A stretch of DNA of 64,000 nt from Tilletiopsis washingtonensis (taxonomy: Eukaryota; Basidiomycota; Exobasidiomycetes; Entylomatales). The stretch is from the NCBI RefSeq assembly GCF_003144115.1, contig NW_020312006.1:124001-188000 (forward strand), written 5' to 3'. The number at the start of each line of letters is the position of its first letter. Position 1 is the first letter of the stretch. The notes beneath the pieces were generated by a model. The model was not told where the DNA came from, did no database searches, and saw nothing but the letters and a program-made list of their open reading frames with translations. Shown here piece by piece: positions 17,794 through 58,042 of the stretch. A program made the translations under genes and the position numbers.

Positions 17794-20700
17794 TCAGAGG
17801 TTCTTGCAGAGCGTGCAGTTGATGTCGAGCGTGTCGGAGAAGATGATCGGCAGCACGATGAGCGCGACGAACACGGCAAAGCTCAGCACAAAGAGGATGC
17901 CGTAGCGGATGACGATCGAGCGGCGCTGCTTGCGCGCGCGCAGGCTGAAGATGGGCGCCGCGAGCGAGTGCCGGCTCGGCGGCAGCCAGAAGAGCGCCAT
18001 CGACTGCAGCCGGTTCATGAAGGGGATGAGCAGCGGGATCGAGAGGCCGAAGAGCAGGATGTGGCACGTGACAAAGTCGGCCGTGAAGAGGGACATCTCG
18101 ATGATCTTGACGAGGAACTCGCGCGCCGGCTGGCTGAAGGCGTGCCCGCCGAGGCCGCGCCCGTACCAGCGGCCCGTCCACCAGGCGCGGTTCGTCTCGT
18201 CGTGCTTGAGCTCGCGCGAGAGCACGAGCGAGATGAGAATCTTGAAGATGGCGCGCTGGATCATGATGACGGCAATGAGGCCGAGCACGGCGTGCGACGT
18301 GTTCCACAGCTCGAGGAACCAGAGGAACTCGAAGAACGCCACAAAGCCGATGAAGGCAAACACGTGCGCAATCGACGCCATGACGGAGCCGAACTTGGCG
18401 CAGCAGTTGCCGAGCGCCGGGCCGAGGAACATGCTGACCATGAAGAGGATGAGCAGCACGGCCGCGTTCCACACGATGGGGCCGAGCGCGATGATGGCCA
18501 GGCGCACGATGGCGCCCATGGGCGGGTCGCCGCGCTCGTGGAACGACTTGACGAAGGCGTACGCGACGGCAAAGATGACGGCCTGGCACGTCGGGCCGAT
18601 GATCTCGGCGAACGCAATCGTGCGCCAGCTGGCGCGCGGCACGTCGCCCGCCAGCTTCTCGCTCGGGTGGCCGAGGCGCTTCTTCTTGTAGCCCGTGACC
18701 TTTGTGCGGCTGAGGCGGCAGTAGCCGATCCACGAGTTGGCGTGCGAGCGCGAGTTGCCGCGCGACATCCAGCGCAGGAACTCGCGGTAGTCGATGATAA
18801 AGTCGGGAATGCTGAACTGGTGCGGGTTGAAGAGGAACGGCGCGATGCAGAGCGCCAGAATCGAGATCCAGAAGTAGATCAGGTGCGGAATCCACAGCGT
18901 GAGCGTCACGTAGAGGAGCAGCAGCAGCAGGCGCATGCCCGAGTAGATCGACGGGCCGGCGAAGCGCGAGTAGAGCAGCGCAAACGACTGGCGCGTCGTG
19001 GCGAAGCCGCGGCCCGTGGCAATGTAGCGCGCGCCGCCGAACGTCAGGTTCGAGATGATCGAGTGGCTGTAGATCTGCGTGCTGAAGACCTCGAACACGG
19101 GCGAGAGACTGAGGAAGTGCTTCGCCAGGCGGATCACCGCCGACACGGCGCCGCGCTCCGACAGCTCCTGCAGGAAGAGCGGCAGGAAGGCAATCATGAA
19201 GACGAGGAAGATCGAGATGATGGTGCGCCGGATCCACTGGAACACGGGGCTGAGGTAGTAGCAGCCGCCTGTGCCCACCTGGTAGTCGCTGTTCGTCGAC
19301 TCGCAGATGCTCAGCTGCGAGTTGAGCGTGCCGATGAAGACGAGCGTGAACATGAAGAGCTGCACGGAGAGAATGACGAGGATGTTGTTGATGTGGAAGC
19401 CCGGGTGGCCGTAGTAGAAGGTGAGGAAGCGGTCGACGGGCAGCTGCGTGCCGAGGTAGTAGTACTCGCGCGAGAGCATCTGCTCGCCCATGCCGTTGCC
19501 GAGCTTCGTCGTGAAGTTGAGAATCGTGCCGAAGCCGAGGTCGCGGCCCTTGCCGCACTGGTAGTACTCGACGTGCTTGATGCGGCCGCCGCGGCCAAAG
19601 GCCGTCATGCCGGCGTAGATGTCCTCGTTGAGGTGCAGGCCCTTCTGCGCCTTGCTCACGCCGCCGCGCGTCGTCATGAAGATGGCGTTGAGGAAGTCCG
19701 GGTGGCCGTAGTGCAGCTTGCCGCCGATCTGCGCCAGGCCGCGGCCGGCCATCGTGCCGAACGTCTGCTCCTTGCCGGCGGCGACGTCGCCGAGGATGCC
19801 GATGTTCTCGGAGAAGATGTACTCGCGCGCGCCGAGGATCGCCACGGGCGCCTTGGCAAACTCGGCGTGGCCCGCGCCGTAGGGGTTCTGGTTCGACACG
19901 TTGAACGACTCAAACTCGCCGAGCACCGAGCGGATCTTGAGGCACTCCTCGAGGTAGTTGTCCTGGTTCGCGTCGATGAGCTGCAGGTACTCGCCGCGGT
20001 GGAAGACGATGGCGTGGTTTTGGTTGTCCGACTTGCCGTCGCCGAGGATCGGGTTGCCGGGCAGCTCGATGCGGAACTTGGGCCGGCGCTTGCCGTTGGG
20101 CAGGATCTCCGAGTGGCCGTCGACGAGCGCCGAGAACCAGCGCGACTCGCCGCCCTCCTTGCGCGGCGCCTCCTCGTCGAGGTAGGCAATCTGCAGGTCC
20201 GGGTACGCGCGCAGCAGGAACTCGGTGTTCTCGTGCTCCTCCTTGTTGAACTTCGAGTAGCGCTGCATGGAGATGACAAACTTGAACTTGCGGCGCGACA
20301 TGCGCTCCAGCTCGCGCTCCAGCTTCTCCGTGTTGCCGCCGAACAGCTGCACCACCTCGGGGTTCTCGACGCGGTAGAGCAGCTTGATGGCCTTGCTGTA
20401 GTTCATGAAGCCCGACACGGTGCGGTAGAGCGTCTGGGCGCGCAGCGACGACCAGATGCGCGTGCGCAGCGTGTACTCGGGCGCCGCGCTCTTGAAGCCG
20501 ATGCAGTAGAAGGGCAGGTCGTCCGTCTTGGAGCTCTTGGTGCCGCTCTTCTCGTCGTCGCCGCCGAACGGCGACGCGCCCGCGAGCGTGTTCGTCTCCT
20601 CGGCGAGGATCTTGGTGTCCTTGACGAAGTTGTCCCACTCGATGGGGTGCAGCTGCTTGAGGTACTCGAGCAGCGTCACGCGCGTGTTCTGGTCCTCCTC

Positions 20701-23252
20701 GCGGATGATCTCGCGCAGCGAGAGCAGAATCTTCTCGCCGTAGTGCGGCACAAGCACGGTGAACGTGGGCATGGCGTCGATGGGCAGCGCCTCGGGCAGC
20801 GTCGTGGTGAGCGACTGCGAGAAGAAGCTGATGCGGCGCTCGGCCTCGGAGCCCTTGGGGAAGAACTCGGGCTTCAGGCCCTTGTCCGACTGGCTGATGA
20901 AGAACGTGGGCGCGCGCAGCGTGCGCTTGCCCTCGTCGCCCGACGGCACCTGGTGGTAGAGCAGCTTCTGCACGTGGTCGATCGAGAGCAGGTGCTCGCG
21001 GTACATCGAGATGATGATGGCGTTCCACACCTGCGACACGAGCACCTTGGGCTTGTACTTGATCTCCATGTCGGCAGTGGCGAGCAGCTTGGCGTAGATG
21101 CGCTTCGGCAGGCGCTGGAAGATGTCGCTCCACGGCGTCCAGATCGAGAGGCCCATCGAGAAGGACCAGCCGATGGAGAAGACCGTGTTCCAGATGACGT
21201 ACCACAGGAACGTGTCGAGGAAGAAGAGGCAGAGGTCCATGATCATCATCGCCGTCAGCGCAAAGGCCGCCTGGTTGGCGCAGAGCGCCGTGCCAAAGTA
21301 CTTGTCGCTGCAGCCCTGCACGCGCATCGTAATCATGATGGCCAGCGGGTCGCGGAACGAGAGCGTGAGGAAGAAGTAGCTCTCGGTGAGCTTGCTGCCG
21401 AAGATGAGGCCCCAGAGCAGGAAGCTGAACACGCGGCGGTTCTTCTCCAGCGGCGCGTAGCTGGCCGTGAACGTCTGGTTGGCGAGGTACTTGCGCGCCT
21501 TGCCCGCCACGCGGTCGCCGAAGAGGCGGCCCGACGGCACGAGCGAGAAGAGCGCCGTAATGCAGCCCGAGACGGCAATGTGCACGATGGAGAGGATCTT
21601 GCAGATCGAGCTGTCCTTGTCCGTGGCGATGCCGTGGATGTAGACGGCGGGGCCGATCGTCACGGCCAGGCACACGGCGAGGAAGGCCATGCGCCGCGCG
21701 AGGTGGCTCGTGTTGTTCCACGTCGTCGGGATGTAGGAGAACTCGGCAAGCGTGGCAAAGATCATGAGAATCGTCGAGACGGCGCCGCCGAGCGCGGCGG
21801 CGGACCAGAGCTGCGGATTTGTCGCGGCGCCCGAGGGGTTGTAGATCTTGGGCGCGTTGTAGCTGCACGAGGGTCAGTGCGTGATGCGGCGGGCGGTGCG
21901 CGCGGCGCGACTCACGCCGTGTAGTACCAGAAGACGGAGATGTGCAGGATCCAGATGCGGTTGAAGTTGACCAGCAAGTGGAAGAAGCTGCGGATGCGTG
22001 AGCAGAGCGTATTAAGCTTGGCCGCTCGCCCACGGACTCACCTGCGCTTCTCCTTGTACGTCTTGAAGAAGACGCGGTTCCAGTCGATCTTGTCGAACTT
22101 CATGAAGCGCTGGTTCGCCGGCACGTCGACGAGGCGCGTCTTGTCGTTGAGCACGATGCGGCCGATGCCCTCGGGGTACCAGAAGAGCTGGTTGACGTCG
22201 TCGTAGCCGATGATCTGGTCGTGGTCGCGCTCCTTCTTGACGAACTTGCCGTCGATGACCTCGAAGACCTGGTCGCGCAGGAAGCGGTACAGCGGCTTGA
22301 CGACGGCGCGCAGGTACAGGCCCTCGGGCACCGGCTCCATGCGGTTCTGGCACTCGGGCGACCGGTAGTAGTCGTCGGCGCACTTGAAGATGAAGCACAG
22401 ACACTCGGGCACAAAGCGCACCTGGCCGCCCTCGCCCCAGCAGAGCAGGTAGAGGGCAATCTGGCGCAGCCGGTCGTAGTCGCTCATGCGGTTCATCGCA
22501 TCGCGCCAGCGCGTCGCGGCGCTCTCGAGCGACTTGGCGTGCGCGCTGCCCGCGGCCGCCTTGCCGCCGCGCCGGCCGCCGCGCCCGCCGCGCGCCATCG
22601 AGGCGGCGCGCCCGAGGCCCGGGTTCTGCGCCTTGCCGATGGCGTCGTCGAGGTCGAGCTGCGCGGCAAAGTACCACTTGCGGTAGTTGGCATTCTCGCC
22701 GCCGATGTAGTCGGCGTGCAGCGTCACGAGCGCCTGCGCCGGGCTCATGCGCGACGAGCGCGAGTCGAGCTGGATCATGAGGTGGTCGTACATGTTGCGC
22801 ATCGAGTCGCGCTGGAAGCCAAACTTGTTGGCGAGGTCGATGAAGATGTCCTCGATCTCCTCCTTGGCCAGCGGGATCTGGTGCTCGACGGTCCACGCCG
22901 GGTACGGCTCGCGCTGCCGGTAGCCGCCGGCGGGGTAGTCGGTGTACGGGCTGGAGACGCCCGACGCCGCGTAGCTGCCGCCGTAGCCGCCGGGCCCGGC
23001 CGATGCATTGCCGCCGCGCTGCGAGTACGACTCTTGCGAGTAGGGCCCGTTGTTGGCGCCGCCGCCCTCGTACGACTCGCTGCCGTCGTAGCCCTGCCCC
23101 GGGATCAGCTCCGCCACGCTGCCCTCGGACTGGAACGTGTCGCGGCGGCCGTAGCCGCTGGCCTCGCTGGCGTCGTCGTGGTACGCCGAGGCGCCCGCGA
23201 AAGGGTTTGGCGGCGGGCCGCCGGGCGCGCCGGGCGCAGGGTAGTGCGACAT
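17794..23252 (-). CDS. FKS1: 1,3-beta-glucan synthase catalytic subunit
   Basis: Exons 23252-22042, 21987-21916 and 21862-17794 encode 1783 aa, the normal family size. The disordered N-terminus ([20 protein letters not shown]) is followed by the FKS1_dom1 region ([20 protein letters not shown]...), the junction [19 protein letters not shown], the first membrane block, a large cytosolic GT48 domain (for example [20 protein letters not shown]-like segment and [20 protein letters not shown]), and a C-terminal block of many helices. It polymerises UDP-glucose into wall beta-1,3-glucan at the plasma membrane, with Rho1. The echinocandin hot-spot equivalents read FLTLSFRDP (residues 592-600) and QWIRRTIIS (1303-1311). 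Introns of 54 and 53 nt lie near the 5' end. Very strong codon bias suggests high expression. Confidence 0.97.
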
Positions 23253-32972: not shown

Positions 32973-35900
32973 ATGGCACCGCCATCTCCGAGCCGCGCCA
33001 CGGGCGCGCCCGCGCCCGGCCAGCTAGGCCGCCGCGCCTCGAACCCCTTCACGCGCAACCAGGACCTCAACGACGAGCTCGAGGCGAGCAACTCGGCCGC
33101 GTCCGTCATCTCGCGCTTCCGCAACGCCTCGATTGGCTCGCTCGGCAGCCGCCGCACCAGCGGCAGCTACGGCGCCATCGAGGAGGGCAGCGACGAGGAG
33201 GGCCTGCCGCCGCTGGCGCAGCAGCGCACGCCCGCCGACCTGCAGCGCGGCGGCGCCGAGGGCTCGGGCACGGGCGTCAGCAAGCCCGCCAGCGACGCCG
33301 CGCCCGCCGGCCTGCCGCTCGAGCCCGAGCTGGCGCCCGCCGGCGGCTCGCAGCGCCACGTCTTTGCCGACAACGTCAAGAGCCCCGACGTGGCGTACGA
33401 CAAGTGCGCCGAGCTTGAGCAGGCCCGCAGCAGCAGCGATGCGCGGGGCAACCAGCGGAGCCGCGGCCTGATCCGCACGTACAGCATGGTGAGTGGAGGC
33501 GGGCGGCGCGTGGGCTGCCGCCGCTCAGACGCTCTCGCAGGCCCAACAAAAGCGCCGGCCAGCGATCATGAACGACGACCGCGTCATCCGCCAGCGGCGT
33601 CTCAGCCACGGTGAGCGAGGCAGGCTTCAAGCCGCGTCCGCGTGAGATTGACAAGCGTCCAGACGCCGTGGCTGCGACGGAGCAGCGTCGCTTCATTGTC
33701 GATGTGGAGGAGACGATGCGGCTGGTGCTGGAGCAGGAGGACACAGACGGCAACTTCCAGGTGCGTCTCGAGCCCCTGCCGCCCTGCACGGCCGCTCACC
33801 GTCTCCGCAGATCAGCATCACGGACAGCGGGCCCAAGGTGCTGAGCCTGGGCACAGCTGCGAGCAACGGGTACAAGGGCGTGGACATCCGCGGAGTGAGT
33901 GCGCCGCCGCAGCCATACGCCCGCTGCCGCTGACTTGGCCCAGACGTACATGCTTTCGAATCTGCTGCAGGAGCTCGCCCTGGCGCGCGAGCACGGGCGG
34001 TCACGCATCGTGCTCGACGAGTCGCGCCTCACGGAGAACCCGGTGGACCGGCTGTCGCGCATGATCTCGCAGACGTTCTGGCACAATCTGACGCGGCGCA
34101 TCGATGCCGACGGCCTCGAGGCGATCCTGGCAGACCCCAAGAACCGCAGCGCCAGCAAGTCGCCGCGCATCTATGTGCCCGCCGCGGAAGAGGAGATGAT
34201 CGAGTACTACCGCAACATCGCCCGCGAGCGGCCGTCGATGGGCCTCGAGGTCGAGGTGCTGCCCAAGGTACTCACGCCCGAGTATACGCGCGACCTCAAC
34301 GACAAGCCGGGCCTGCTGGCGCTGGCGATGCGCAAGGAGAAGGACGCCAAGAGCGGTGAGGAGGTGCTCAAGGGCATTCCGTTCATCGTGCCGGGCTCGC
34401 GCTTCAACGAGCTCTACAACTGGGACTCGGTCAGTAGCGTGGGCCGCAAGCGAGAACCAACAGCTGACTCCCCGCACAGTACTTCATCTCGCTGGGCCTC
34501 GTTGTCGACGGCTGGGTCGACATGACGCAAGGCATCGTCGAGCACTTCATCTTCAACATCAAGCACTACGGCAAGATCCTGAACGGCAACCGCTCCTACT
34601 ACCTCATGCGCTCGCAGCCGCCGTTCCTCACCGACATGGCGCTGCAGGTGTACTCGCGCCTCGACCCGGACAAGGAGGCGGAGAACAAGGCGTGGCTAAA
34701 GCGCGCCATCCAGGCGGCCATCAAGGAGTACCACACCGTGTGGATGCGGCAGCCGCGCTACGACCCCGTCACGGGCCTCAGCCGCTACCGCCCCGAGGGC
34801 CTCGGCGTGCCGCCCGAGACGGAGGCCAGCCACTTCACGCACGTGCTGCGCCCCTATGCCGAAAAGTACGGCTGCAGCGTCAACGAGTGAGTGCCGGTGT
34901 GAGCAGCCAGGGTGGCCTGCGGCTGACGCCGCGGCAGGTTCACGCACATGTACAACCATGGCGAGGTCAAGGAGCCGGAGCTCGACGAGTACTTCATGCA
35001 CGACCGCGGCGTGCGCGAGAGCGGCCACGACACGTCGTACCGCTTCGAGAAGCGCTGCGCCAGTCTTGCGACAATCGACCTGAACGCGCTGCTGTACAAG
35101 GTGAGTGTGCTCGGCCTCCGGGGGGTGGGCATGTTACTCACTCCCTTTGCAGTACGAGGTGGACATTGCGACGGCAATCCGCGAGGTCTTTGACGACAAG
35201 CTCGAGCTCGACGACGACTTCACGCTCTGGGCGCCGCTGCCGCCGGAGCTGGCCGACAAGCAGCCCGAGAAGCCGTCGCACTCGCACACATGCGCGCAGT
35301 CGAGCGCCGAGTGGTTTGCGCGCGCAGCGCACCGCAAGCGACAGGTGGACAAGTACTGCTGGAACGAGGGGCAGAGCCTGTACTACGACTACGACACGTC
35401 GACGGGCCGCCAGGGCTTCTACGAGAGCGTCACGGCGTACTGGGCCATGTGGGCGGGCATGGCGAGCGAGGACCAGGCGGCGAAGCTGGTGTGAGTGGCG
35501 GCTGCTGGTTGCGTGCTGTGTGCGGCGCTGACGCCCCATTCCACAGGCACAATTCGCTGCGCAAGTTCGAGGTGACCGGCGGCCTCGTGCCGGGCACGGA
35601 AGACTCGCGCGGCCGCATCTCGCTCGACCGGCCGAACCGGCAGTGGGACTACCCGTTCGCATGGCCGCCGCATCAGATGCTGGCGTGGATCGGCCTGGAG
35701 CGCGTGAGTAGAGCAATAGGCTGCGTCCGAACTGCTGCTGATGGCTGTGCCAGTACAACTACGTCGAGGAGAGCCGCCGGCTTGCATACCGCTGGCTGTA
35801 CCTGCTCACGACCTCGTTCGTCGACTTCAAGATGATTCCCGAGAAGTGTGTCGCGCGCCTCGGCTGCCGCACGCTCCCTGTAATCTGACCCTCGACTGCT

Positions 35901-36381
35901 GCGCAGGTTCGATGCCGTCGCGCTGTCGCATCTTGTCGAAGCAGAGGTGAGTGCGGCGTGTTCGCGCTGCCTGCGTACTCGTCCAGTCGCTGACAACTAA
36001 TCGCACACAGTACGGTGCGTGAACACTTCAGGCCGCTTGCTCCGCGTTTGAGGTGACTCGAGCTGTCGGGGACTGATCTTGCCCCCCTCACAGGCAACCA
36101 AGGCACGGACTGGAAGGAGTTCCCGCGCGCTGGGTGCGTCGAGCGTGACCCGTGAACGAAACCTGATTGGCTGACCCCGCTCGCGCACAGATTCGGCTGG
36201 ACAAACGCCTCGTACCAGGTGGGCCTGACCTTCCTGACGAGCGCGCAGCGGCGCGCGCTCAGTCTGTGTGCGCACCCGAACGAGGTGAGCTTCGGCGCAA
36301 GGATGGCGGACAAGGGGCGTCTAGAAGCTGATCCGCTCGCTCCCCTGCAGGTGTTCGGCACGGGGCGCAGCCAGACCTGAT
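32973..36381 (+). CDS. NTH1: Neutral (cytosolic) trehalase, GH37
   Basis: Fifteen exons encode 872 aa: 32973-33488, 33541-33610, 33663-33760, 33811-33894, 33944-34429, 34480-34886, 34938-35100, 35153-35490, 35547-35703, 35754-35845, 35907-35946, 36011-36014, 36094-36133, 36191-36284 and 36352-36381. The N-terminal extension has PKA-type sites at S23 (RRAS), S63 (RRTS) and S194 (RRLSHD), then the fungal Ca-binding loop [21 protein letters not shown]37 signatures are [15 protein letters not shown] and [12 protein letters not shown]. By alignment to yeast Nth1, the catalytic pair is D585 (RESGHDTSY) and E803 (IPEKFD). It hydrolyses trehalose on exit from stress or dormancy. Family regulation is by PKA and 14-3-3 binding. 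Exon 12 is only 4 nt and completes EYGNQGTDW. Confidence 0.93.
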
Positions 36382-37394: not shown

Positions 37395-39540
37395 ATGTAC
37401 GTCTATCCATGGGACATCGACGCCAAGGCCAAGGCCAAGTACCTCAAGAAGCTGAAGAAGGTGCGTCGTGCCCTGAGCGTGCCTTCGGTCGCACCGCACT
37501 GACGTCGCTGCAGCCCGAGGACCTGCCGCAGCTGGTGCGCACCGTGCAGACGCTGTACCACAACAGCTTCAAGGTGCCGTTCATGTTCGCCTTTGCCATC
37601 CTCGGCTGCGCCGCTGCGCTCGTGCTCGGCTGTCTGGCCGTGCGCGTCGTGCGGCATTTGCGCTCTTCTCCCAGCAGCAAGCGCAGTGGAGCCGTCCGCA
37701 AGCACTTCGTCGATGCACCGCTGCTCGGCTCGCGCCACGCTGAGCCGCTCACGCTGGTCCCCGGCATCGGCAAGGAGGCGCGTCCGATCATCAGCCTCGC
37801 TGTGCCGCTGCGCTCGCACACGACGGTCCTTTTCGTGCTCGCGCTGCTCAACTTCCTCCCGCTCGTCGCCTGCTACTCGCCGACGTCTGTCAAGGACAAC
37901 TACTACTACAAGACGATGTTTCTGCAGATCATCAAGTACTTCGGCGACCGCACCGCCGTGCTTGCCGTGGCGCAGCTGCCGCTCGTCATCCTCCTCTCCG
38001 GCCGCAACTCGCCCGTGCGCACGCTGACGGGCATCAGCTTCGACGTGGTGATGCTGTACCACCGGCACGTGGCGCGCTGGGTCGTGGTGCAGGTCGTGCT
38101 GCATGCCATTGCGTACAGCCTCAACGAGGCCGTCAAGGATGGCCACGAGGGCTACATCGAGACGATGAACAAGCCGTACGTCAAGTTCGGCACCGCTGCT
38201 CTTGTCTTCGTCGTCGCCATGGTGGTGCAGTCGCTGCGCGTGCTGCGCCAGAAGGCCTACGAGGTCTTTGTCGCCGTGCACATCGTGTTCGCCGCCCTCG
38301 TGCTCGCCGGCGTCTGGTGGCACATTGCGCTGCTGGCCAACACGCGCTACGCCCTCTTCTTCGACCTGCTCTGGCTCGCCATCGGCGCATGGGTGTTCGA
38401 CCGCGTGGCGCGCGTCTTCCTCCTCGTGGCGCTCAACACCAACCTGCGCATGGCCGCCGGCGTGCCGTTCCTCAGCCGCGCCAGCGTCTCGCTGGTGGAG
38501 GACAGCAACGCCTCGCTGCTCCACGTGCGCGTCTTTCCCTCGGGCGCGACACTCGGCCGCGCACTCGACGGCTCGAGCGTCATGCTGCACCTGCCTACCG
38601 TGCAAGCCTTCGTCTCGCACCCCTTCTCTGTCATGGCGGGCGGCACCGACGAGACAGGCCGTCGCTTCCTCGACCTCGCCGTCCGCCCGCAGGCCGGCAT
38701 GACGCGTCGACTGCACGAGCGTGCCATCAACGGTGCCTTCGAGTGCGTGGCGCTGCTCGAGGGCCCGTACAGCGGCGACGAGATGGACGTGAGTGTGCCT
38801 ATCTGCACAGTGCTTGACCAAGACTGACACCAGCGCCAGCTCGGAGGCTTTGAGCACGTCCTGCTCGTCACCGGAGGTATCGGCATCACGCACACGCTGC
38901 CGATCTTCACCAAGGAGATGCGGACGCCGTCGAGCAAGACGGATGCCGAGAAGCCTGCAGCGCAGCGGACCGTCGAGATGGTGTGGTGTGCCAAGAGTGC
39001 CAGTGCGTCCTCTCGTGCTGCTCTTCTCGCCTGATGCTGACCTCGAGTCCAGGCACCTTCGCTGTCGCTCTCGACACGCTCGAGCGCGAGGTCGCTTCGG
39101 CGCGAGCTTCTGGCTCGACGCACACGCGCGCCAAGATCACGCTCTGCGTCACGAGCCAGTCCGACTCGCGTCGCTCCTCGACGCTGAGCGAGAAGAAGAG
39201 CAGCAGCGACGAGGAGAAGGGCGCCGCGCCCTTCGACTCGCCCGTGCTCGAGGGCGGCCTGCCGCTCGACTCCATCCCGCAGCTGCTCTCGCGCCAGACG
39301 CCCGAAGAGAGCGCAGGCGATGCCGCACGAGTGCGCGTGCGCTTCGCCGCACTGGCGCCCGAGGTGCAGGTGCTGTGGAGCGAGGGCAAGCCGGACGTCG
39401 GCGCCGAGATTGCCCAGCGCGGCGAGGCTGGCAGCACGCTGGCCATCGTGGCGTGCGGCCCGCCGGCGCTGCTTGATGCCGCACGTGCTGGCGCCCGCGG
39501 CGTCGGCGCCGTCTACGAAGAGGCCGCCTACGGCTGGTAG
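37395..39540 (+). CDS. Ferric/cupric reductase transmembrane component (FRE family)
   Basis: Exons 37395-37460, 37514-38788, 38840-39002 and 39053-39540 give 663 aa. The membrane part has about seven helices with the two bis-heme His pairs spaced 14 residues apart: H205/H219 (LYHRHVARW ... VLHAIAYSL) and H278/H292 (FVAVHIVFAAL ... VWWHIALL). The cytosolic part has the FAD motif HPFSVM (H391), the NADPH glycine motif VTGGIGITHTLP and the C-terminal VACGPPALLDAAR. Such enzymes move electrons from NADPH through FAD and heme to extracellular Fe(III) or Cu(II) for high-affinity uptake. There is no obvious signal peptide. A Ser/Lys/Glu-rich insert (STLSEKKSSSDEEKG) sits in the NADPH domain. No multicopper oxidase or permease gene lies nearby. 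Confidence 0.93.
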
Positions 39541-42771: not shown

Positions 42772-45700
42772 TCAGCCGCGCGTCGTCTTCTTGCCGCCCT
42801 TGGCCTTGACGACCTTGAAGCCGCCAAAGTCGGCCGCGCCGGCGGCCGGCTTGGTCGACGACTTGAGCACGTCGCTGGCGCTGCGGCCTGCGCCGAGCGC
42901 GGCGCCGTTGGGCAGGCCGGCGCCGATGGCCGAGCGCGCCGCGGCGCTGCTGCCGGCGCCGCGGCCGCTCTGGTCGAGCTTGCGCTTGGCGACAAAGTCG
43001 GCGGCGAAGCGGCGCCCGTCGAGCGTGCTGCTGTTGGCGTACACCGACTCGGCGATGATCTCGACGACGTCGGGCGACGGGTCCAGCGGGAAGGAGAGGA
43101 GCATCTCGATGAAGTCGTCGGCTGCGGCGCACATGTCAGTAGGCGCACATTCACAGCACGACGCGCCGACTCACCCTTGACATTGAGACCCTTGAGCTGC
43201 TCCTTGCAGTACCGCAGGAAGTCGGCGCTGGGCTGGCCCGAGCCGAGCTGCTCGCTGGAGGCCGACGGCGCCACGACCATCTTCGTCTTGATCACGGGCG
43301 ACTGCACCTTGGCCGCCGGCGTGCCGTTCTGCTTGGCGCCGGCGGTGGCCCACACGCCGACCGGCGGCGTGGCGCCCAGGCTGCCGGCGCGCTGGCCCAC
43401 GGGCGTAGCTGGCGGACGAGCACTGGCAGGCACAGCGCTGGCGGGCTTGCTCCCGACGACGCTCCATGCGCCGCTGGCGGCGGCGGCGGGCGGCGGCACC
43501 TGCGTCTTGCCTGCCGAGTCGGCGTAGCCGCGCCGCAGGGCTGCCTGCTGCGCGGCCTGCGCGTCGCGCGCCTTCTGCGCGCGCTTGCGCTCCTCCTCTT
43601 GGATCTCGGTGAGCGTCTTCTTGGCCGTCGGACGCGCCGCACTCCACGGTGCCGGCGAGGCCGAGGCGGCGGCGTCGGCCGCGGGCTCTGGTGCACTCGA
43701 GCCCTGCGAGGCATGGCCCGTGGCCAGGCCCCACGTCATCGTCGCCGGCAGCGTGTCGTCGCCCGAGGCCATCGAGCGCGCGCGCTGAGCAGCCAGGGCG
43801 CGCTCGGCAGCGCGGCGGCTCTCGGCCTGGCGCGCCTCGGCCTCCTGGATCTCGCGCAGCGTGAGGCCGGGCGCAGACGCGCTCGACTCCGTCGCGGCGG
43901 CCCAGGGCGCCTTGGACGTCGTCGGCGTGTTGCTGCCGCTGTCGGGCAGCCAAGCAGACAGAGGCGCCTGGTTCTTGCTGTCCTCCTCTGCACCTCCGGG
44001 ACGCTTGAACTGCTCCTGCGACACGACCTTGACGTTGCCTCCCGCGGCGCTCGGCGGCGCCTGCCGCTTGCCGACGTCCGCGCCGGCGTACGAGCTGAGG
44101 TCAGCCGTGGGCATGGGAGCGCCAGCGGCCTCCTCTGCGCGCGTCTGCTGGCCCTTGCGGCGCGAGCGCTTGCGCGAGCTCGTCGCCGGTCCGTCGTCCA
44201 TCAAGTTGTTCTGCTGCTCGTGGTGCGCCGGCAGTGGCGGCTCGGCAGCGAACTCGACGGCAGTCGGGCTCTGCGGCCAGACCTCCTCCGGCTCAGGCTC
44301 GGCGTGCGCAGCCTCCTGCTGCTGCAGCATCACGGCAGTCTCGCGTTCCTGGCGCTCCTGCTCCTCCCGACGCTGAGCCTCCTCCTCCTCCTGTTGCTGA
44401 GCGTCGCGCTGTTGCTGCGCGAATGCCTCTTCTTGCTGCTGCTGTTGCTGTTCGGCGAAGTCCTGCTGCTGGCTACTGGCCTCCTCGACGGGGGTGCGCG
44501 AGCGGCGCGGCGTGCCGATGGGCTCCGGATCCGACTTGTGCAGCTGAGCCTCGGCCTGCTGGTGCGCCGAAGAGTCTGACCACGGCACCTGCTGCGGCTG
44601 CTGGAAGTGATACTGCGGCTGCTGCGGCGCGGTGCCGAACTGGCGCGCGGGCGTGCCCCACGGCGAGCCCGATGCGGCCTGACCCTGCTGCTGGTGTTGT
44701 TGCTGGTGCTGGTGCTGCGGCGTGCCGAAGACGTCGGGCTGCTGGTGGTGCAGATGCGCAGTTGCGGCATTCCAGCCGCCAGGCGCGCTGGCCTCCCAGC
44801 CGTTGCCTGCCGCATGGCCGCCAAAGTCCCCACCGTAAGGCGTGGCGAAGCCAAGGCCCGGGCCGGCGTGTCCGCGCGCGGCGGCAGCGGCGGCCGCCTG
44901 GCGCTGCTCCTGCAGCTCGCGCTGACGTACCATGGCGAGGTAGTCGTCCTGCCCACGCAGGCCGCCTGCGCCGAACAGAGGCGCGGCGCCGAATGGCGAC
45001 TGCGGCGCCTGCACAAAGGGCGAGTGCGGGCCGCCGAAGCCGGACATTTGCTGTCCCGGCTGCGCGCCGAAGCCGAGGTCGAGCGACGGCCAGCCGCGCG
45101 CCTGTACGCTGGCTGGCAGACCCGCGCCGCCCCATCCACCGCGCGAGAGATCACTGCCAGCCGGCTGGCCCAGCGCATCGTACGGATGACCGGCGTGGTG
45201 CTCGCCAAGGCCATTCGCCTGGTGCTGTTGCTGCGACGGCTGGTTGCCGTGCGAAAAGACGTCGTGCTCCGGCTGCTGCTGCGCTTGCTGCGGCTCGGGC
45301 GCAGGCGCAGGTGCCGGCGGCGGAACAAGGAAGGGCTGCGCCGGGTGGCCGAGCGAGGCGATGATCTCGCCCAGCGGACGGAACGACTCCTCCTCGGCGC
45401 GGCGCATCGGCAGGTCCAGCGCAAAGTAGTTCTGCTGAAACCAGTCCTGCATGATGGTGGCGGCGAACGGGCCCTGGTCCTGCCCTGACGGATCGCGGTA
45501 GTACCACTGCGCCGTGTCGGCAGACCACGGCGGCGGCGCGGCCGGATCCGACGTGGGAGCCTCGACGTCGCGGCTGTCGTCGGCAAAGCTGCCGCTGCCC
45601 ACCGGCGGGTCGTCGTCGAGGCTGAGCGCATTCAGCACAGACGCCGTGTGCTGCAGCAGCGAGTCGCCGCTGCTGCCGCCAGCCGAAGCCTGAGCATCGT

Positions 45701-56900: not shown

Positions 56901-58042
56901 CGGAGGATGCAGAGCGCAAGCGACGGGCGCGTGGCATCCTCGGCCGCCAGCCGGTGAGTAGCACGTGCATAGTCAGTGCGCAGTGCCTTACTCCCTCCTG
57001 CAGTTGCCCGAGGCTCTCACGCCCGAGCAGCAGGCAGTCGTGCAGCAGGCGCTCCGCGACCGCGGCTTCAAGAAGGCCATCACCGGCGCGGAGGCGACGC
57101 ACCGCAACATCCAGCGCCTGCAGCCGGGCAAGTGGCTCGACGACGAGGTCATCAACTTCCACATGGTGCTCATCAACACGCGCAACGCCGACATGCTGCA
57201 GCGGCGCGCCTCGGCGCCGCTGCCGCTGCAGAACACCTTTGCCAACGCCAACGGCGACGAGGTCAAGGCGGCCAAGCTCGCCGCGCGGCGGGCGCGCCAG
57301 GCGTACGGCTACTGGAACGTGCACGCCTTCATCACGGGCATGTACACGCGCATCGAGGAGGGAGGGCACAAGGCCGTCGCGCGCTGGACGAAGAAGGTCG
57401 GCGACGTCTTTGTCAAGGACCGCCTGCTCTTCCCGATCAACCGCGGGCAGAGCCACTGGGTGTGCGCGTGCATCAACCTGCGCGAGCGCCGCTTCGAGTT
57501 CTACGACAGCATGGCCGGCGGCTCGTGGGAGCGCGAGGCCGCCGAGCACCTCTCCGACTGGCTCGTGAGCGAGTGGCGCGCCAAGAAGGCCGCGGCGCAC
57601 GGCGGGCGCGAGCTCGACGTCTCGGGCTGGCAACGCTACACGTGCCGCACGAACCCGCAGCAGCGCAACGGCTACGACTGCGGCGTGTTCAGCGTGCTCA
57701 TGATCGAGCAGCTCTCGCGGCGCGACCCGTACGCGCCCATGCCGCCGCCGCTCGACCCGGCCGAGCTGCTCGAGGCGAGCGCGCGCGACGCGGAGCGGGG
57801 GCCGCCGCGCGAGGAGGATGTGCTGATCGACGAGCGGTGGAACTTCGAGCAGTGAGTCCCGCATCCCCTGCAACGTCGTCGAGTGCTCGCTGACGCAGTG
57901 CTGCCCGCGCCTCAGGAAGAACATTCCGTACTTCCGGCAGCGCATGATCTACGAGATCAGCAGTGAGTACCGCGCTCGACCGTCGGTCTTCTCTGCTGAC
58001 CCGGCGTCGCATCTACCAGCCGCGCAACTGCTTGACTACTGA
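53972..58042 (+). CDS. Ulp1/SENP-type SUMO-specific cysteine protease with a ~1000-residue disordered N-terminus
   Basis: Exons 53972-56953, 57004-57851, 57916-57962 and 58020-58042 give 1299 aa. The catalytic C48 domain is about residues 995-1299: GKWLDDEVINFHMVLIN, then H1145 in NRGQSHWVCACINL, D1162 in FEFYDSMAG, Q1214 and C1220 in QQRNGYDCGVFSVLMIE, ending NIPYFRQRMIYEISTAQLLD. The triad plus the oxyanion Gln are intact. The N-terminal thousand residues are Ser/Ala/Pro/Glu-rich with an NLS-like MGKRRRSF start, a KRKREPIFMWDHKVK block and a long acidic region with PIDLTGDSDSEE-like and DDDEILLIET-like candidate SUMO-interaction motifs. It should mature SUMO and deconjugate it, probably at the nuclear envelope or in the nucleus. 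ATG 53972 was preferred over 53816 for its basic start. Confidence 0.9.

Follow-up and report, generated by a model that had tools for sequence, protein, structure and literature searches.

The DNA analysed here (the window) is a stretch of 64,000 nt from contig NW_020312006.1 of Tilletiopsis washingtonensis, and the assembly searched for comparable cases comprises 18.7 Mb in 32 contigs. The window harbors a large 1,3-beta-glucan synthase (FKS1) gene (17797-23201, minus strand; Pfam Glucan_synthase and FKS1_dom1/dom2), a ferric-reductase-like gene (37499-38791, plus strand), a GYF-domain gene (43437-45680, minus strand) and a Ulp1-protease-like gene (57016-57852, plus strand), besides the neutral trehalase gene considered in the following (Table 1). 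The model of the latter was assembled manually on the basis of open frames and splice signals, and consists of 15 exons encoding 872 amino acids without any internal stop.

Table 1. Features of the neutral trehalase gene (positions in the window) and other ultra-short exons of the genome (positions in the assembly).
Feature	Position	Strand	Details	Basis
Neutral trehalase gene (GH37, Nth1-like)	32973-36380	+		open joined frame, homology
Exons 1-5	32973-33488, 33541-33610, 33663-33760, 33811-33894, 33944-34429	+		gene model
Exons 6-10	34480-34886, 34938-35100, 35153-35490, 35547-35703, 35754-35845	+		gene model
Exon 11	35907-35946	+	40 nt, ends ...VEAE	frame, Nth1 alignment
Intron 11	35947-36010	+	64 nt; donor GAG GTGAGT, acceptor CACACAG	splice signals
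Competing in-frame acceptor	35981-35986	+	GTCCAG	position-weight score, Pfam
Exon 12 (predicted microexon)	36011-36014	+	4 nt, TACG; encodes Y818 and supplies the first base of G819	frame, homology, Pfam, shuffles
Intron 12	36015-36093	+	79 nt; donor ACG GTGCGT, acceptor CTCACAG	splice signals
Exon 13	36094-36133	+	40 nt, opens with remainder of G819; first bases GCAACC	frame, Nth1 alignment
Exons 14-15	36191-36284, 36351-36380	+		gene model
L130, 6-phosphofructo-2-kinase/fructose-2,6-bisphosphatase	G000:C10:715480-716080	-	predicted 2-nt exon CC	homology
L108, mitochondrial carrier	around G000:C9:78676-78706	+	predicted 4-nt exon TGTG within PAEVVLVRM	homology
L085, putative secreted protein	G000:C6:783958-784958		predicted 3-nt exon, SDFCLWGP motif	homologs
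L116, acyl-CoA dehydrogenase	around G000:C13:443986-444013		probable 4-nt exon	Pfam

Residues 190-871 of the predicted protein aligned to the yeast neutral trehalase Nth1 (chain 5jta; 775.8 bits, E 5.2e-232), the part N-terminal to residue 190 falling outside the alignment, and the gene matched the Pfam family Trehalase, for which a search across the genome returned this single locus. The best homolog of residues 690-872 among 965 was Ceraceosorus guamensis P0001, with 86% identity over 97% of their length. Glu803, within EKFD, aligned with Glu674 (EKYD) of Nth1, and the Nth1 block FNELYGWDSY was matched as well, so that both blocks with catalytic residues are present; the catalytic acid and base of Nth1 are Asp478 and Glu674. 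Similarity over the full catalytic domain, together with the aligned catalytic residues, identifies the putative product as a fungal neutral trehalase, as proposed by the initial annotation. Neutral trehalases of the Nth1 type are regulated by a kinase and 14-3-3 at the N-terminus.

In the C-terminal part of the gene the initial annotation had placed a 4-nt exon between two introns of 64 and 79 nt; its coordinates proved exact, and the branch-like and CAG signals are present in the genomic DNA. Exon 11 closes with GAA GCA GAG, the last codon being that of Glu817, exon 12 supplies TAC G and exon 13 continues with GC AAC CAA GGC, giving E-Y-G-N-Q-G within a joined reading of EAE-Y-G-NQGTDW (E817, Y818, G819). 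The peptide VEAEYGNQG aligned to Nth1 without gap, and Tyr818 lies 15 residues past Glu803, in agreement with the earlier claim that the two codons served by the exon are close to the predicted catalytic glutamate. EYGNQG was found in 119 of the best 120 of 965 homologs, the remaining one (P0067) reading EYGQQG, and E and Y were adjacent in all 120. The C-terminal piece of the protein matched Pfam Trehalase with 100.2 bits (residues 1-94 of the piece) when TACG was included, and with 70.1 bits when it was omitted, in which case the match broke off at residue 809, short of the junction by eight residues. Direct joining of the flanking exons had been expected to destroy the C-terminus, and it does shift the frame: 25 foreign residues are followed by a stop at 36226-36228 (position counted by hand), 56 nt upstream of the last exon junction. 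Such an exon-skipped product is predicted to be non-functional rather than an alternative isoform, and TACG appears to be required for both the reading frame and the conserved protein sequence, which would make it a microexon (an exon of at most 15 nt).

Both flanking introns carry recognizable signals. Intron 11 has two branch-like motifs, CTGAC and CTAAT, at distances of 17 nt (counted from the A) and 10 nt from its 3' splice site, while intron 12 has CTGAT at 17 nt. The remaining 12 introns of the gene measure 49-66 nt, all of them end in CAG and nine contain a YTRAY motif. A small position-weight model trained on these 12 introns assigned scores of 13.0 and 8.7 to the donors beside the microexon (8.0-13.6 in the 12 introns) and of 4.5 and 10.2 to its acceptors (4.1-11.5), the acceptor at 36010 being near the weak end of the training set; intron 12 exceeds all 12 in length. 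By these measures the two flanks of TACG resemble bona fide spliceosomal introns. Genome-wide, the signature GTGAGT...CTGAY...CAG was matched 4980 times against 98 in a reversed control and GTGCGT...CTGAY...CAG 3074 times against 162, which amounts to about 7,800 matches above control, with a GTGCGT share of 37%.

To estimate the chance of meeting such an arrangement, the interior of the 147-nt composite intron was shuffled with preservation of dinucleotides, while its first 6 and its last 25 bases were left in place. AG-TAYG-GT appeared at workable positions in 40 of 50,000 shuffles, and in none of the 50,000 when a pyrimidine before the AG and a usable donor were also required. A looser pattern for 4-nt exons (CTGAY, CAG, 4 nt, GTGMGT) had two matches in the whole window against 0.06 expected; the second of them, at 33468, was rejected as a microexon, as it sits at the end of exon 1.

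We infer the splicing of TACG, its order and its constitutive use from the sequence, and consider it highly probable (about 0.9) that these four nucleotides are a genuine, constitutively included coding exon. Within the codons of Tyr818 and Gly819, 4 nt would separate two short introns of the ordinary spliceosomal kind, each equipped with a donor, a branch-like site and an acceptor, and the splice sites would be paired across the intron, which is the expected mode for fungal introns this short. Recognition of the exon itself would be unnecessary, because each intron carries its own full set of signals. With just 4 nt between them, the factors on the acceptor and U1 on the next donor could hardly be bound at the same time, and a stepwise removal is expected, in which the introns would most likely leave one after the other; once the first is out, the second would be an ordinary intron. 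A jump from 35947 to 36093 would yield a frameshifted mRNA as a non-functional by-product. Constitutive splicing is indicated because the skipped form would be dead, the intron signals are ordinary and comparable exons are predicted in unrelated genes. In human MPC1, a 4-bp exon is described as constitutive and as depending only on intact flanking splice sites (PMC9929638), and constitutive inclusion of the trehalase exon is therefore the plain expectation.

A regulated switch, by which conditional skipping of TACG would lead to frameshift and decay and thereby to lower trehalase activity, is improbable. A premature stop does follow the skipping, and a glucose-dependent microexon switch has been reported for Trichoderma xlr2, another fungal microexon whose skipping alters the product (PMC11121469); the two xlr2 isoforms are, however, described there as functional, whereas the skipped form of the trehalase is predicted to be inactive and would provide no alternative isoform. 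None of the splice signals of TACG, moreover, departs from the range set by the gene's other introns, and similar ultra-short exons are predicted in unrelated genes of the same genome. The suggestion of the initial annotation that inclusion of TACG could control enzyme output is, on these grounds, unsupported.

The same annotation held that the block EYGNQGTDW can be read only through TACG. This stood as far as the exact conserved block is concerned, but not for the frame, as other in-frame paths exist, one through a 28-nt exon and weaker ones with a single intron. Among 49 enumerated splice paths, with one or two introns, the path through the acceptor ending at 35986 is the strongest alternative, and could occur as a minor in-frame form. 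Intron 11 would then end at 35986, and an exon of 28 nt (35987-36014) would insert SLTTNRTQ before YGNQG, in the main or in a minor form of the transcript. We regard this as very improbable: its frame is open and its position-weight score is the highest of the 49 paths (39.1 vs. 36.3 for the TACG path), but it needs a 40-nt intron (35947-35986) that is devoid of a YTRAY motif and falls short of the 49-66 nt of the 12 others, it separates by eight residues the E and Y that are invariably adjacent in the homologs compared, and its Pfam Trehalase match is lower, albeit by a small difference of 3.5 bits (96.7 vs. 100.2). The single-intron and the other two-intron paths were set aside on predicted splice-site quality, branch motif and conservation. 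A single intron, or a nested pair (twin intron) that leaves no exon in between, removing for example 35947-36062 or the whole 147 nt, has a negligible likelihood: removal of 35947-36062 preserves the frame, and stwintrons are known from fungi, but the acceptor would be TCGAG, which with a score of -8.5 ranks 3828th among the 4354 AG sites on the plus strand of the window, and 10 residues would take the place of the conserved Tyr, while removal of all 147 nt causes a frameshift, so that the absence of any exonic base between the introns, which defines a stwintron, does not apply to TACG.

The proposed constitutive 4-nt exon of the trehalase gene has several counterparts. The closest is an exon of a single nucleotide in CYP621A P450 genes of Fusarium, confirmed by RNA reads and conserved over 20 orthologs (PMC12940212): in both cases a fungal ultra-short exon restores the frame inside a conserved motif, two short introns flank it with a summed length of about twice that of a usual intron, and the exon is missed by gene callers, the difference being that the Fusarium exon belongs to an ascomycete, measures 1 nt and has RNA support, whereas the trehalase exon measures 4 nt and is known from genomic DNA. 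The MPC1 exon shares with that of the trehalase its 4 nt, which are not a multiple of three; when it was cut to 2 and 1 bp, splicing occurred without marked change, and with no exon left both introns were still spliced if both splice sites were intact, but it belongs to a human gene with an exon-definition 'island', in contrast to the trehalase exon, whose flanking introns have 64 and 79 nt (PMC9929638). Plant microexons of 1-15 nt are commonly misannotated and, like the trehalase exon, lie inside conserved protein motifs (PMC8831610). In P450 genes of the basidiomycete Phanerochaete chrysosporium, where introns are likewise short and exons may have few codons, the shortest exon has 6 bp, the exons being longer than that of the trehalase and confined to one gene family (PMC1184071). 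The literature on fungal, basidiomycete and smut microexons, covered by titles and abstract openings and including few subscription papers, showed nothing on microexons of this genome or of Ustilaginomycotina, one paper in which both terms occur being, by its title, an RNA-seq workflow (PMC11197194), and that on neutral trehalase, covered to the same extent, showed a single paper, unrelated by its title. The trehalase exon joins the known ultra-short exons, and as a lead the set found across the genome is worth more.

The genome was searched for a pattern in which CTGAY and CAG precede a tiny exon and its donor, some places being listed twice. Matches numbered 29 vs. 14 in the reversed control for exons of 4 nt, 64 vs. 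26 for 1-3 nt and 55 vs. 30 for 5-7 nt, the surrounding DNA being covered for every place of these three sizes, and the examination of exons of 8-12 nt covered the places among the first 100 of 259 matches. The raw excess (259 vs. 101, and likewise the three pairs above) was rejected as evidence because real donors inflate the counts. A stop-free two-intron path was available at seven of the 29 places with a 4-nt exon, that of the trehalase having a coding score of 9.2, two others 5.5 and 6.3, and the remaining four scores near or below zero. Filters that demanded another donor and acceptor, an uninterrupted frame and flanks of coding character left 13 candidates of all sizes, namely L130 and L137 with 2 nt, L085 and L028 with 3 nt, L110 (the trehalase), L108 and L116 with 4 nt, L146 with 7 nt, and L019, L078, L018, L099 and L027 with 10-12 nt. 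L108 scored 6.3 with flanks of 36 bases and below the cut-off of 4 with flanks of 30 bases, and no candidate passed these filters among the last 44 loci. Earlier filters were too strict, giving three candidates, and five from 98 sequences, and both missed the trehalase exon. In a decoy-donor control 12 of 208 sites with real donors passed, as compared to 2/88, 0/12, 0/22 and 0/0 decoys, a control that is imperfect in that the real pattern had served to pick the loci and there is overlap between the first decoy and real donors. Pfam searches with 10 candidate peptides returned four matches above the family cut-off and two below threshold, the other four having no match. Random placement would yield roughly 87-120 intron pairs 1-7 nt apart with strict signals, a crude estimate based on how often the signals occur in the 12 trehalase introns and on an assumed coding length of 8-11 Mb; eight candidates of 1-7 nt were left by filters that lose real cases. 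The picture suggested is that of ultra-short exons as the thinned-out tail of a dense intron population, not as a special device. Viral contigs searched for DNA of relatives contained 268 stretches fitting a pattern, none of which encodes a relative.

Homology supports six of the 13 candidate exons: that of the trehalase, L130, L108, L085, L018 and, probably, L116. The predicted 2-nt exon of 6-phosphofructo-2-kinase/fructose-2,6-bisphosphatase (L130) is more extreme than that of the trehalase: CC completes the Ala codon of a conserved HQA motif, the joined peptide aligned to 1fbt without gap, the His_Phos_1 match reached 53.3 bits with the exon and 33.3 without it, and the sole single-intron path found adds residues after HQ. 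In the mitochondrial carrier the block [NC]P[AG][ED][IV][VL]LVR was present in all six homologs, and a Pfam match of 24.5 bits was lost without TGTG; its peptide had no match among PDB chains. The region of the putative secreted protein reads D[FWY]C.[FWY] in 39 of 51 homologs, and in 22 of these it follows an N[SDG] at the distance seen in this gene; the other 12 are devoid of the motif, and many of the remaining homologs diverge just upstream. In the aspartyl protease, presumably Ddi1 (L018), a predicted exon of 12 nt raised the Asp_protease match from 36.3 to 52.5 bits. The 4-nt exon of the acyl-CoA dehydrogenase accounted for a Pfam match of 47 bits, with none in its absence, and the peptide had three weak PDB matches (E 0.0004-0.0005); the exon is only probable because intron 1, with 54 nt, is open and allows an in-frame reading in which it is retained. 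The candidates beyond homology support are L137, with chance-level matches and one sub-threshold Pfam match, L019, with a weak HAD match (E 0.052), L146, L028, L078, L027 and L099.

With the 4-nt exon of the trehalase and the 2-nt exon of the fructose-2,6-bisphosphatase, such exons would reach the central carbon metabolism of a smut-related basidiomycete. Automatic annotation can easily drop them, so that a truncated or broken enzyme is reported, and standard read aligners readily overlook exons of 4 nt. Very short introns combined with several exons of 2-4 nt would also offer a natural test of the intron-definition spliceosome, with respect to nearby splice sites and the order of removal. It could be supposed that exons of 2-12 nt, perhaps dozens, form a genome-wide class in catalytic or transport motifs, and that their splicing is ordered by an asymmetry of splice sites, the downstream GTGCGT, taken as the weaker donor, letting the upstream intron leave first without U1 blocking the adjacent acceptor; we consider this rather doubtful. 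The donor after the microexon was GTGCGT in 11 of the 13 candidates vs. 37% of the signature introns (binomial 0.0007), and in five of the six supported by homology, L116 included (binomial 0.03), a lean that may be an ordering signal, or else bias or noise among the candidates without homology support, and that we report as a lead.
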